Assembly: GCA_021740785.1 (NCBI GenBank)
Contig: JAIOZI010000041.1
Span: forward strand, 1-46,323
Length of the DNA: 46,323 nt
Direction: 5' to 3'
Origin: Melioribacteraceae bacterium
GTDB lineage: Bacteria; Bacteroidota; Ignavibacteria; Ignavibacteriales; Melioribacteraceae
Shown: one piece after another, positions 32,521-38,176 of the stretch
Position numbering within the stretch: the first letter of the stretch is position 1
Layout: each line of letters opens with the position of its first letter
Notes under the pieces: model-generated
The model's database searches: none
Told to the model about the DNA's origin: nothing
Seen by the model: only the letters and a program-made list of their open reading frames with translations
Translations under genes and position numbers: made by a program

Positions 32521-33291
32521 TTAATTGCTTTTTACTAAAGCGGCTATGTCATTGTCAAGATATGGAGTAGAAAAATTGACAAAGTTTTTACGCTCTTCGG
32601 TTACATTAAAGTTGGACAAAGCAAAATCAATCTTCCCGGATTTTAAAGCGGGGACTAAACCTTCGAAATTCATATCAACAAATTCAATTTTCTTATTCAG
32701 CAGTTCGCCAATCCGCATACCCAATTCAATATCAAAACCGGTAATTGAATTGTTATATATAAATGTCAGGGGTTCGGCTTTCGCACATGTCCCGATTTTT
32801 AGTGTTCCGTTCTCACTGCTTGATTCAATATCCGGTAATCCCGGGACTACCGTAAATCCCGGCTCGATCCACTTTTCCTTCATTATTTTCAATGTGCCGT
32901 TATCCGTTAATTCATTCAATGCATGATTAACTTCCGACAGTAATTCTATCTTGTCTTTATTAAACGCAATTGCAATATCAACTTTTGAAACAGGTTGATC
33001 CAAAATTATTAATTCAGAATCCTTTTTAACTATACTGCGTAGAACACTTTTATTATGAACAAAGGCTTCTGCCTTGCCAACCTTAACGCTGTATGCTGCA
33101 TCTGCTGCAGCTATCATATCCATAAAAACTGCATCGGGAAATGCTTCCCTTGCCGCATTATCACCGGATGAACCTGTTAATACACAAATCCTTTTGTCAC
33201 TTAATTGTTTTATATCCGTAATCTTCTCTTCTTTTTGAGAGCATGAAAATAAAATTGATACGGCTAATAATAGGGTTAAATTTTTACTCAT
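32521..33291 (-). CDS. Circularly permuted family-3 solute-binding lipoprotein
   Basis: A 256-residue lipoprotein (lipobox LFSC, Cys17). Residues ~25-140 are lobe 2 plus the C-terminal helices of a canonical amino-acid binding protein ([19 protein letters not shown], ending [12 protein letters not shown]). Residues ~163-256 are the canonical N-terminal lobe 1 ([49 protein letters not shown]). The lobe order is thus reversed. The carboxylate-binding Arg in TEER is kept; the lobe-2 Asp is Asn in AFVHN. It is the last gene of the operon and overlaps the ATPase gene by 8 bases. Only homologues with this order could complete one binding site per chain. Confidence 0.8.
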
Positions 33292-34387
33292 TATTTCCTT
33301 TCTCTCTTTTGATAAACATGCTTAATTTATTTTTATCCTTTACCCGGTTAAACTCAATACTGCTTGTCATATTTTTAACAATCATTAAACCAATTTCATC
33401 CTCGTTTATTTCATCAAGGATATTCACTTCTTTACCGTGGTTTTCGAAAATCACTTCCAATGTATCGCGCTTTTCCGAATATGATAAGGTTAGACTAACA
33501 TCATTTAGAAGTGAAAGTGAATCATACATCACCAATATTTCTTCCACAACAAGCAAAACATTATTGATTAATTTCTTGGGCAGAATATGCTTTTCGCAAA
33601 ACTGTTCAATCTCTGCATTCATCGCATATAAATCATACTGCGGATTTTCGATGAGATAGTGAAGGCTTCTAACTCTGTTTATAAAAGCCCTGGTTTTTTC
33701 TTTCTGTGGATTATCAAATATCTGCTGAGGCGAACCGTCTTCATAAATTAAGCCTTCATCCATGTATAAAACTCTGTTTGATACATCGCGGGCAAAATCC
33801 ATTTCATGTGTTACAATCGCCATTGTCATTCCTTCCTTTGCTAAGCGGCGAATTACTGCCAATACTTCACTTACCATCGTAGGATCAAGTGCTGATGTCG
33901 GTTCATCAAAAAGTATGATTTCAGGATCCATAGAGAGGCAGCGCGCAATCGCAACCCGCTGTTTTTGTCCGCCGGATAATTCATCTGCAAAACTTTCAGC
34001 CTTTTCAGAAAGCCCGACTAGTTTAAGAAGCCGCATTGCTTTTTCTTCAGCTTCTTCTTTTTTTCTGCCGAGCAGTTTTATCTGTCCTATTGTTAAATTT
34101 TCCATTACAGTGAGATGATGAAAGAGATTAAATGACTGGAAGACCATTCCCATTTTCTGACGAAGTTTCGGTACATCAGCGTCTTTATTTAATATGTCGA
34201 TCCCGTCAATTAATATATTTCCTCCGGTCGGTGTTTCCAAAAGATTGAGGCAGCGCAAAAAAGTACTTTTACCGGTTCCGGAGGGACCAATAATTGAAAT
34301 GACTTCACCTTTTTCGATATCAACATTTATCTCTTCTAGAACGGTTAAGCTTCCGAATTTTTTTGATAATTTTTCCACATGTATCAT
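33284..34387 (-). CDS. ABC transporter ATPase with C-terminal GHKL/RsbW-like domain
   Basis: Residues 1-243 are a GlnQ/HisP-type polar amino-acid transport ATPase with Walker [10 protein letters not shown] (34-42), Q loop FQSFNLFHH, signature [14 protein letters not shown], Walker [14 protein letters not shown] and H loop VTHEMDFA. Residues ~250-367 are an extra domain: [16 protein letters not shown] resembles the N box of RsbW/SpoIIAB anti-sigma kinases (VEExxxN), followed by [28 protein letters not shown] and a [10 protein letters not shown] end. The Asn of the N box seems replaced, so nucleotide binding is uncertain. It lies four bases after the SBP-permease gene. The domain may sense or gate uptake. 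Confidence 0.85.
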
Positions 34388-34391
34388 ATTA

Positions 34392-37379
34392 TTAACCCCG
34401 CTGAATTTTATGTTTAGGATTTGTTAACCGTTCCACATATCCTAGTGAATACATCAGCACCCATGATATAATGAAATAGAGTACGGCAACCATAATCAAA
34501 GGGAAAAAAGCATCGAAGGTTCGACTTCTTATTATATCACTCGCCTTTGTTAAATCTTGCACGGCAATATATCCGACAATCGATGTCATTTTTACCAACG
34601 AAATCACTTCGCCTTTATATACAGGTAAAATTCTTTTAACAGCTTGCGGAAGAATAATATAGATAAACGTTTTCACCTTTGTGAAACCCATCGCAATTCC
34701 GGCTTCGGTCTGACCTCTGTCAACTCCCTCTATTCCCGTCCGGTACATCTCGGAAACATACGCCGCAAAATTTAATCCGAATGCAATCACTGCAACTATA
34801 ACAGGATCAATATCAACTGAAGCAAATACAACGTAAAAGATTATCATCAAAACAACCAATACCGGTGTGCCGCGAAGGATTGATATATAAACTTTTGCCG
34901 GTATTAATAAAATATTTTTCTTCGACATTCTCATGAAGCAGATTAATCCGCCGAGAATTGTACCGAAAAGAGTTGCAAAGATAGATATAATAATGGTCGT
35001 TCTAAGTCCATCGAGTATCAAAATATACCGGTTTTCCAAAATAATATTGCTGTAAAAACTATTTAAGATGTCTTGAAAAAATGATATTGAAACTTCTTCT
35101 TTTTCCTCTTGTTGAGGTTCAATTTGACTTTTACCGGATAGATTACTGTTTAAAACGAGAACTCCGGTTTTGAACATATTGTAACTGTCTGAGAATGCAA
35201 CCTGCTTTTGTCTTTCTTCGGTTATTGCAATTCCGTCGGCAATCATGTCAACTTTACCAGACGATAAAGCTGCGATCAAAGATCCAAATTCCATTGTAAG
35301 TATCTTAAGGTTGTAACCTCCGCGCTGAGCAAAAGTTTTAATCATTTCAATATCAAACCCGACATGCTCGCCGTTCAATATTGCGGAATTAGGCAGGTCA
35401 CCAACGGCTGTACCAAGCTTAATTACGGGCTGAGTTTCATCGAATTCAAACTTAGGCATTACTGCTTTTTCGGGATCATCGACAAACCACCTTTTATAAA
35501 TTTCATCAAATTTACCGTCGGATTTTATACTACTCAAAAATTCATTGAACTGTTTTCGCAATTCAGGATTGTTTTTGCTAAAACCAATTGCAACCGGGAG
35601 ATCAAGTGCATCTTCACTTAATATGCCGATATCGGGATTGGATTTGAGCATCACCTTCGCCGAGGCAAGATCAATAAAGGCTGCATCAATTTTGCGGGAT
35701 TTCAAAGATAATATTATATCCGAAGGTGTATTGAATCTATTAATCACGGCGCTAGGGAAATTTTCTTCCACAAACGCATCGTGGATTGTCCCTGCATAAA
35801 CTCCTACTGTTTTGCCGTTAATATCATCGAGCGATTTGAGTTTTGTACCAGGAATTGATTCAACGTTATTTTTCAAGGCAAAGAAACTTGCGCTCAACCT
35901 GTAATAGGGATCGGAGAAATCTATTTGTTGCATCCGCTCTTCGGTAATCATAACCGTACTTGCAATTATATCAACTTTATTCGCTGCTGTGGCGGCAACC
36001 AAACTTCCGAATTCCATATCAAGCAGTTTTACCCCTTTCCCTAAAGAGGCGGCAAATCTTTCAGCTAATTCAATATCGAATCCGATCATTTTATTGTCTT
36101 TGATAATCGTAAAGGGCAGACCTTTATCACTTACAACGCCAACTCTCAATTCACCGTTTACATTCGATTTATCAATTACCGGCATTTGGGATTCACCGTT
36201 AATAATCCATCTTTTGTTCATGTCATCAAATGTGCCGTCGGCTTTAATCCTCTTTAGAAATTTGTTGAACTGTTCCTTCAAGTCGCCATTGTTTTTATTA
36301 AATCCTATTCCGATAGGTACGGTAAATAATGTATCACCGAAGACAGTTAAGTCAGACTCACCGCGCAGGATTTCTTGTAATGTTTCGGTATTATATATTG
36401 CTGCATCCACTTTGCCGGACCGAACAGCGAGTAATAATTCAGGAGGATTTTTATACTGTAAAACTTCTGCATCGGGAAATTTTTCAATTGCATAAGTGTC
36501 GTGAACAGAGCCAAGCAGAACCCCGATTTTTTTATTTTTGAGATCATCAAGCGATCGCAATTTAATATCGGTATTCTTGGATTCTTCATTTCCGCCTTCG
36601 GCTTTCTTTACAAGTACCACTTGTGAATTGGTGAAATAAGATGTTGTGAAGTTTACTGATTTTGCTCTTTCCTCGGTGGCTGTCATTCCTGCAACTATTA
36701 AATCAATTTTCCCGGATTGAAGAGCGGGAATGAGAGCGGAAAATTTCATATCATAATACTTTATGGGTCGATTTAATTTGGAACCTAATCTTCTAGCCAG
36801 CTCACCGTCGTGACCGGTAACCCTCTGATTTTCATCAACAAAACAAAATGGTTCACGTGTAGCGCTCGTCCCGATTTTTAATATCTCTCCATCTTCCGGG
36901 AGAATGATGTCAACTTCTTCATAAGGGGATAAATCATTTTTCAGCCAACGCCGTTTCATATCTGCTAATGTGCCGTCGGCTCTAAGTTCAGCAATGATTT
37001 CATTTACATCTTGAAGAAGTTTTTCATTACCCATCTTTACCGCAATAGATGTGTTTTCGTAATCGACGGGTTCTTCGATAATCATAAACTCAGGATTGTG
37101 TTTACATACATTCAGTGCAGTAGGGAAGGCGGTTATTACTGCATCAATTTGTCCCGATTTTAAAGCCGCAATCCCGTCCATAATATCATCGAAACTTTTT
37201 GTTTCTGCCTCCGGAAATCTTGTTTTAGCCAGATGCTCACCGGTGGAGCCTGTCATTGCCCCGATGGAAATGTCTTTTAAATCTTCCAAACGCGTTAGAG
37301 TTTTGTTTGTCTCACTGCATCCAAATGCCAAGATTAATAAAATGAAAGAAGATAGAATCAAGAGGAAGTGTTTTCTCAT
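34392..37379 (-). CDS. Triple permuted solute-binding module fused to ABC permease
   Basis: A 995-residue lipoprotein-permease fusion (lipobox LAFGC, Cys21). Lobes alternate 2-1-2-1-2-1: lobe 2 at ~30-150, lobe 1 ~160-255, lobe 2 ~270-390, lobe 1 ~405-500, lobe 2 ~515-630 and lobe 1 ~648-740. Each lobe-2 block opens like [16 protein letters not shown] and ends [12 protein letters not shown]; each lobe 1 ends with ITEER...FSDPYY. A linker leads to a BPD_transp_1 permease (~778-995) with the EAA loop [20 protein letters not shown]. Fused binding proteins recall GlnPQ of lactic acid bacteria, but those are canonical and at most two. The protein is anchored at the membrane at both ends. Confidence 0.85.
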
Positions 37380-37390
37380 AATTATGTTCC

Positions 37391-38176
37391 TTATTCTCTA
37401 ACCAATGCTGCAATTCCGCCGATATAATATGGTTCGGTGAATAAAACTTTTTGTGCCCGTTCCTCCGTTATTGTGATGCATGCCCCGATCATATCCACCT
37501 TATTGGATATCAACGCCGGTATCATTGCTCCAAAATCCATGTTAATAACTTTAAGTTCTTTTCCCAATTTTTGGGCTAATAGTCTAGCGATTTCAATATC
37601 CAGCCCGACAATTTCCTGTGTTCCGTCAATAAATGAGAACGGCTCCGTTACGGCTGATGTACCGAACTTCAATATTCCGTTTTCTCCTGAAAGTGTAATG
37701 GCGGGCATTGCTTCCGGTGAGCCGCTTTCAGGCAGCCAGCGTTTAAGCATTTCATCATATTTTCCTGTTGATTTCAAATCATTAATCAAACTATCGGCGG
37801 CTTTTTTCAATTCTGCATTTTCCGGGTTTACAGCAAAGCCGTATTTATCAATAGTGATCATATCTTTAAGCACTTTTAAACCGGGATTTTTCGCTGCGAT
37901 ATTTTTTAAAATCGGTTCGTCGTAAGCTGCTGCATCTGCTTTGCCTGATTTTACGGCAATACATGCATCTAAAACACTGTTGAAATACTTGAACTTTGCT
38001 TCAGGGAACTTGGACAAAACCAATTTGTCTGCAACTGTTCCCGTGGGAATGGCAAATTCTTTCCCTTTTAATTGACTTATATCTTCAATCTTTTCCCTTT
38101 CGCTGCAGCCAATAAATGCAATTGATAATAAAAGCAATGAAGCTTCTAATAATTTCACTAAAATTTCCTTATTCAT
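37391..38176 (-). CDS. Circularly permuted family-3 solute-binding lipoprotein
   Basis: A 261-residue lipoprotein (lipobox FIGC, Cys24) and the first gene of the operon. Lobe 2 comes first (QLKGKEFAIPTGTVADKLV to GKYDEMLKRW, ~30-147) and lobe 1 second (ILKFGTSAVTEPFSF, GLDIEIARLLAQKLG, TITEERAQKVLFTEPYYIGG, ~165-261). Both amino-acid contact residues are kept: the lobe-2 Asp in GKADAAAYDE and the lobe-1 Arg in TEER, so an alpha-amino acid is a plausible ligand. It precedes the triple fusion by 11 bases and may deliver substrate to the same permease. Confidence 0.8.
   Translation of the reverse strand: MNKEILVKLLEASLLLLSIAFIGCSEREKIEDISQLKGKEFAIPTGTVADKLVLSKFPEAKFKYFNSVLDACIAVKSGKADAAAYDEPILKNIAAKNPGLKVLKDMITIDKYGFAVNPENAELKKAADSLINDLKSTGKYDEMLKRWLPESGSPEAMPAITLSGENGILKFGTSAVTEPFSFIDGTQEIVGLDIEIARLLAQKLGKELKVINMDFGAMIPALISNKVDMIGACITITEERAQKVLFTEPYYIGGIAALVRE

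Follow-up and report, generated by a model that had tools for sequence, protein, structure and literature searches.

Can the solute-binding domains of an amino-acid-type ABC importer be built back to front, with the second lobe encoded ahead of the first? This question is raised by four genes on the minus strand of the window analyzed here, a 46,323-nucleotide stretch of a Melioribacteraceae bacterium (contig JAIOZI010000041.1). The original prediction, whose gene coordinates were exact, had read every family-3 binding module of this locus as circularly permuted, starting with lobe 2 (L2) and finishing with lobe 1 (L1). From head to tail, the genes encode a 261-aa lipoprotein (38176-37391), a 995-aa fusion protein (37379-34392), a 367-aa ATPase (34387-33284), and a second lipoprotein of 256 aa (33291-32521). 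Given that the intergenic gaps are 11 and 4 bases, and that the end of the ATPase gene and the start of the 256-aa gene overlap by 8 bases, the four genes very probably form one operon. The Walker A, signature, and Walker B motifs of the ATPase, read by eye, are intact. The features are as follows.

37391..38176, minus strand: free lipoprotein, 261 aa, subtype I, one permuted unit; signal/lipobox, lobe 2 at 37730-38083, lobe 1 at 37394-37678 (lobe profiles, phmmer)
34392..37379, minus strand: whole 995-aa gene; lipoprotein-type signal, three L2-L1 units, and permease (Pfam, lobe profiles)
36939..37292, minus strand: 995-aa protein, unit a lobe 2, residues 30-147, subtype III (lobe profiles)
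36597..36887, minus strand: 995-aa protein, unit a lobe 1, residues 165-261 (lobe profiles)
36201..36554, minus strand: 995-aa protein, unit b lobe 2, residues 276-393, subtype IV (lobe profiles)
35865..36155, minus strand: 995-aa protein, unit b lobe 1, residues 409-505 (lobe profiles)
35481..35834, minus strand: 995-aa protein, unit c lobe 2, residues 516-633, subtype V (lobe profiles)
35142..35429, minus strand: 995-aa protein, unit c lobe 1, residues 651-746 (lobe profiles)
34410..35054, minus strand: 995-aa protein, polar-amino-acid-type permease domain, residues 776-990 (PF00528 E 1e-16 for the whole protein; NCBIfam TIGR01726 71.2 bits against a cut-off of 42.2)
33668..34387, minus strand: ABC ATPase domain, GlnQ-like, residues 1-240 (PF00005 E 1.6e-37; best NCBIfam model GlnQ, below its cut-off)
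33287..33643, minus strand: ATPase C-terminal RsbW/HATPase_c_2-like domain, N-box Asn absent (PF13581 E 1.1e-4, below cut-off; hhalign 98.0%)
32521..33291, minus strand: free lipoprotein, 256 aa, subtype II, one permuted unit; lobe 2 at 32863-33216, lobe 1 at 32524-32808 (Pfam, lobe profiles)

Separate profiles for the two lobes, built from the window's own five SBP_bac_3 units, read the 261-aa protein as L2 (residues 32-149) followed by L1 (167-261), the 256-aa protein as L2 (26-143) followed by L1 (162-256), and the 995-aa protein as L2-L1-L2-L1-L2-L1-permease. The claim that all three binding-protein genes begin with lobe 2 and end with lobe 1 was borne out in five of five units, as was the alternation of six lobes ahead of the permease; the canonical order of lobe 1, lobe 2, and C-terminal helices was found in none of them. 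A canonical lobe 1 upstream of any first lobe 2, searched for with the lobe profiles in all three genes, was absent, and only a signal segment of 25-31 residues lies ahead of each first L2. In related genomes, these two profiles placed L1 ahead of L2 in 25 other SBP_bac_3 ORFs, including seven SBP-permease fusions, and found a single lobe in six more; the method thus detects the canonical order where it occurs.

SBP_bac_3 (PF00497) homology extends over both lobes and is above cut-off in the three proteins (E 4e-31, 5.2e-31, and 2.7e-101). In the two small proteins, Pfam and NCBIfam gave split or one-lobe matches, and the best Pfam SBP_bac_3 stretch was the second half (164-255 and 169-260), starting at profile position 1, a result independent of our lobe profiles. 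When the 261-aa protein was compared with solved structures by phmmer, residues 166-260 aligned to residues 9-103 of the canonical 6svf and residues 34-150 to residues 114-229 (E 4.9e-20 and 1.8e-16), in the same register as 6ggv, an entry titled T. maritima ArgBP. At the sequence level, this exchange of halves relative to a canonical arginine-binding protein is far beyond chance. Both lobes of the window units are homologous to those of TmArgBP and other SBP_bac_3 amino-acid binders, their order is reversed, and the unit is otherwise complete, as in a circular permutant.

That the permutation is only apparent, owing to misplaced gene starts, fused genes, or a single contaminated assembly, is a reading for which we found no support and to which we give practically no credence. 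The signal segment directly precedes lobe 2, and the order is conserved among the genome's own relatives and in 80 named loci that include records not marked as MAGs, which refutes it. Among 58 relatives, a five-unit profile gave full-length matches in six genomes, the window's own included, while of the other 52, 10 had partial matches only and 42 had none at E 1e-10; the permuted order was present in the relatives G010, G018, G024, G042, and G047. In a wider draw, 42 of 395 genomes of the phylum matched at E 1e-20 or better. A scan of an 84,980-species collection returned 121 pattern stretches, of which 105 encoded relatives and 80 were kept as named loci; given that these were found with subtype I patterns, they cannot give the frequency of other subtypes without subtype I. 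Lobe 2 was followed by lobe 1 in all 80 loci and in 125/125 lobe-2-containing ORFs there (four touch a locus end), and a lipobox-like motif before lobe 2 was not seen in 30 of the 125. The named loci come from Ignavibacteria, Chlorobiaceae, Geobacter, Trichlorobacter, other Proteobacteria (Rhodocyclus, Azonexus), Bacillota, Planctomycetes (Kuenenia), Gemmatimonadetes, Verrucomicrobia, Acidobacteria, and others, most of them being metagenome bins whose names are possibly wrong. The few records not so marked include Trichlorobacter thiogenes, Azonexus hydrophilus, and Rhodocyclus purpureus, with the same order. A search for relatives in viral contigs yielded 51 pattern matches and no relatives. 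Far from being peculiar to this locus, the permuted order characterizes a whole family spread over many bacterial groups.

The original prediction left room for binding sites either within a permuted unit or across neighboring units. In the latter arrangement, L1a-L2b and L1b-L2c would form canonical flytraps, and the outer lobes would pair together or with the free lipoproteins. The 995-aa protein offers some grounds for this: its best Pfam SBP_bac_3 stretch is L1a plus L2b (167-392), its Pfam and best PDB matches span either that pair or L1b-L2c (about 410-639), and its between-unit linkers are short (14 and 10 residues). However, single units, which cannot pair in this way within one chain, are the commonest form. 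The ORFs of the 80 loci comprise 88 L2-L1, 20 L2-L1-permease, 11 two-unit, and 6 three-unit proteins, a few of them cut by locus ends, alongside 28 with a permease only (some fragments) and one L1-permease cut by a locus end (L152); copy number in the permease fusions thus varies by whole L2-L1 units, from zero to three. Linkers within units span 15-19 residues (148 cases), against 8-28 between units (23 cases). Subtype assignment against the window's five units also agreed between the two lobes in 152 of 153 units. In 18 multi-unit proteins, where comparisons are not independent of one another, L2 and L1 identities of the same unit correlated at 0.912 (903 comparisons), whereas the canonical pairing L1(i)-L2(i+1) gave 0.260 (300 comparisons; the same units self-paired, 0.92-0.93) and the outermost lobes, first L2 with last L1, 0.013 (153 comparisons). 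Both kinds of partner lie next to each other on the DNA, so the gap between 0.91 and 0.26 cannot be put down to linkage.

Each L2-L1 unit is one evolutionary module. The variation in copy number by whole units, the shared subtypes, and the divergence correlations all argue that the two lobes of each unit very probably also close together as a single Venus flytrap, and we consider pairing across units quite improbable. Of the two placements of the binding site first proposed, the one within a unit is therefore favored, while lone units, linkers, and subtype sharing speak against the other.

The AlphaFold2 model of the 261-aa protein, which adds to the case for such closure, was confident (pLDDT 94.2, pTM 0.84, 62 alignment rows), and that of the 995-aa protein was poor overall (pLDDT 71.7, pTM 0.34, seven rows) and too weak for lobe packing. 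In VIA-align comparisons with the 261-aa model, the best match over both lobes was OpuAC 2b4m (Z 11.4, rmsd 4.4, 203 aligned), and lobe 1 matched TmArgBP domain 1 (6gpc; Z 10.7, rmsd 2.9, 94 aligned, 41-42% identity). Given that the canonical-order GluR0 (Z 10.0) and GlnPQ SBD1 (Z 9.8), each superposed lobe for lobe with 11-12% identity, score little below OpuAC, the OpuAC match tells little about lobe order. Foldseek ranked chiefly HisG enzymes and further type II folds at the top, in sequential lobe-on-lobe alignments that are uninformative for the permutation.

To consider what the units bind, we examined two ligand-site positions, a lobe-1 Arg and a lobe-2 Asp, whose counterparts in HisJ/LAO contact the alpha-carboxylate and alpha-amino groups. 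The Arg was present in 152 of 153 units, with a gap in the remaining one. The Asp was present in 83/83 units of subtype I, 10/14 of subtype II, 0/19 of subtype III, 4/30 of subtype IV, and 6/7 of subtype V; all 19 subtype III units have A, G, S, or T at this place, and in the window itself the alignment puts Asn there in the 256-aa unit, Ala in unit a, and Asn in unit b. Subtype I is likely an amino-acid binder, while subtype III and most of subtype IV may bind something else. Given that the Asp is lost in subtype III and kept in only 4/30 of subtype IV, some units may not be amino-acid binders. For the importer as a whole, the ligands would be small alpha-carboxylates, in all likelihood amino acids.

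A tree of 53 of the 153 permuted units and 24 of the 25 canonical proteins from the fetched loci, with L006, TmArgBP, and GlnH left out and two canonical rows forming long branches, placed the permuted units on one side of a single branch (84/92 support, 87% of bootstraps) and divided them into five subtypes. There was probably one permutation event, perhaps through tandem duplication followed by loss of the outer lobes. Units of subtype II are free in the window and in L085, L086, L094, and L141 and fused elsewhere, while subtype III occurs free in L158, its other units being fused or truncated at a locus end. These states were assigned by length: one of the two subtype III units called free (L093) is cut by a locus end, and one subtype I unit called fused (L113) probably reflects a long miscalled start. 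The distribution fits a history in which, after the permutation, units were duplicated and moved between the free and the fused state.

The window ATPase carries a C-terminal tail that scored 22.7 bits against Pfam HATPase_c_2 (PF13581), below the cut-off of 27.4, and a PDB sequence search with this tail returned one chance-level row (E 0.53). A profile of the tail family (35 rows) aligned with a profile of stand-alone RsbW-like proteins (13 rows) at 98.0% in hhalign (E 1.6e-13), and on this profile comparison the tail is homologous to RsbW. The N-box Asn required for RsbW kinase activity is invariant in the 13 stand-alone copies. At the corresponding place, fourth after a conserved Glu pair, it is absent by eye from 35/35 aligned tails; given this loss, the tail is probably not a working RsbW kinase and not catalytic. 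It differs from RsbW anti-sigma kinases (HATPase_c_2) in this respect and in its fusion to an ABC ATPase. An RsbW-like tail was found in 56 of the 63 ABC-hit ORFs in the 80 loci. Of 66 permease ORFs, 53 had a same-strand ABC ORF within 300 bases, tailed in 53/53, and 13 had none in view; for the seven tail-less ABC ORFs, the nearest same-strand family permease is at least 1.7 kb away or missing from the locus.

Genes of partner-switch type occur near some of these operons. With models built from members in these same loci, we obtained 44 STAS, RsbW, or SpoIIE matches in the 80 loci, 41 within 3 kb of core genes (429 kb, 0.96 per 10 kb) and 3 beyond (432 kb, 0.069), an approximately 14-fold enrichment in which the loci are related and the counts are not independent events. 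Examples in or beside permuted-SBP operons lie at L072:6078-6842, L116:13556-14317, L143:14383-15162, and L094:5987-7865. SpoIIE, binding protein, permease fusion, ATPase, STAS, and RsbW follow in one run in L116, L140, and L143, the last being a Pelodictyon luteolum record, and STAS and SpoIIE lie directly upstream in L090, L093, and L094, with Pfam confirming SpoIIE in L090 and L094 and STAS in L094. Under a strict same-strand chain rule, partner-switch genes belonged to the operon in 13 of the 80 loci and in 10 of the 55 with an ATPase. None were seen beside this window's operon, and STAS/RsbW neighbors in its own genome lie on other contigs. The original prediction had included neither these genes nor the RsbW-like ATPase domain nor the family-wide spread.

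The pseudo-RsbW tail is probably a docking site for STAS proteins or a similar partner that would set transporter activity. The constancy of the tail beside family permeases, the full runs from SpoIIE to RsbW, the STAS-SpoIIE pairs upstream, and the enrichment near core genes could also suggest a system that is mainly a sensor, in which the tailed transporter reads ligand supply and feeds the STAS/RsbW/SpoIIE switch, import being secondary. We regard this as rather unlikely, given that the ATPase motifs look intact by eye, that the operon holds no partner-switch genes in 67/80 loci, this window's among those where none were seen nearby, and that the tail probably lacks RsbW kinase activity. 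Also tentative, and doubtful at present, is a scheme of mutual control in which ligand capture would alter the ATPase cycle, the tail would bind or free a STAS protein balanced by SpoIIE and RsbW, and uptake and a sigma-factor-type response would control each other. The permutation places both tethers on the hinge side, and this may allow several flytraps to gather around one permease.

The reading that we prefer, with a probability of roughly 0.77, is that of a polar-amino-acid-type ABC importer served by a naturally circularly permuted branch of SBP_bac_3 proteins, with self-closing units and a docking site on the ATPase tail. In such units, the old termini are connected by the fixed linker of 15-19 residues, and the new termini sit at the first hinge, where lobe 1 would otherwise lead into lobe 2; given this arrangement, the N-terminal lipid holds lobe 2, and in the fusions the permease tether departs from the strand of the hinge at which lobe 1 finishes. 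The three fused units and the pair of free lipoproteins, of five different subtypes, would pass small alpha-carboxylate ligands to the permease, which would probably act as a homodimer driven by the GlnQ-like ATPase, and a STAS protein or similar partner would dock on the pseudo-RsbW tail and set its activity. The original count of five potential sites feeding one permease and one ATPase needs correction: a single permease gene points to a probably homodimeric membrane part, which would offer six fused sites plus the free lipoproteins instead of five in total.

The domains of GlnPQ are canonical (L1-L2), and the GlnPQ tandem 6h30 matched the window proteins in the canonical register. GlnPQ-type importers have two tandem family-3 domains fused to the permease (PMC8025302). 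The 995-aa protein shares with them tandem SBP_bac_3 domains N-terminal to a polar-amino-acid permease, served by a GlnQ-like ATPase, but its fused domains are not in canonical order: all window units are L2-L1, the family has up to three fused, and it adds free permuted lipoproteins and an extra ATPase domain. Circular permutants among other natural binding proteins have already been published, so the permutation, real as it is in an amino-acid-type importer, is less unique than first implied. TpMglB-2 (Tp0684), a "Type Ic" glucose-binding lipoprotein, is reported to be a bilobed natural circular permutant that still binds its ligand (PMC4990184), and in its permuted bilobed form it resembles the window lipoproteins. 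It is a type I/cluster B sugar binder permuted inside the N-lobe, with a fourth cross-over needed (PMC4990184), whereas the window units belong to family 3 (type II fold), are opened at the hinge, and exchange whole lobes. The glycine-betaine binders OpuAC and ProX are reported as mutual circular permutants, recognized by structure comparison, with less than 24% identity among themselves (PMC2395249). They represent a different ligand family and do not belong to SBP_bac_3; they share with the window units a type II fold and a permutation between relatives, OpuAC being also our best structural match over both lobes. Among the matches listed from open-licence PMC text, subscription literature being outside the scope, none reported SBP_bac_3 proteins with permuted lobes or an ABC ATPase with an RsbW-like tail, and the matched passages of PMC9732360 and PMC2861598 mentioned no permuted binding protein. 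The RsbW-like tail may offer an apparently undescribed way to regulate an ABC importer.

The family amounts to a large natural experiment in circular permutation, in which five subtypes persist, units exist both free and fused, and related genomes supply relatives of canonical order; such natural pairs allow hinge mechanics and tether position to be compared. The curated profiles used in this analysis give split or one-lobe matches to these proteins and join the wrong lobes in fusions. The tail, in turn, suggests a testable route of ABC importer regulation.

Some individual loci showed further arrangements. In Rhodocyclus purpureus (L155:4418-11330), two permease-fusion/ATPase pairs on opposite strands surround one free lipoprotein, and in a Geobacteraceae bin (L119:4320-5369, plus strand) a lipoprotein that looks BMP/PnrA-like by eye lies between the ATPase and a STAS-RsbW pair. 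Elsewhere in the window's own genome, a 493-aa protein (L168:3495-4973, minus strand) is headed by an RsbW-like domain, with a later part that is acetyltransferase-like by eye, and adjoins a STAS gene and a second RsbW-like gene. Another protein of this genome (L170:3217-4678, plus strand) has its lobe 1 separated from lobe 2 by an insertion of about 115 residues, an arrangement like that of a GluR0-type ligand-gated channel, and is directly followed by a STAS-like gene.
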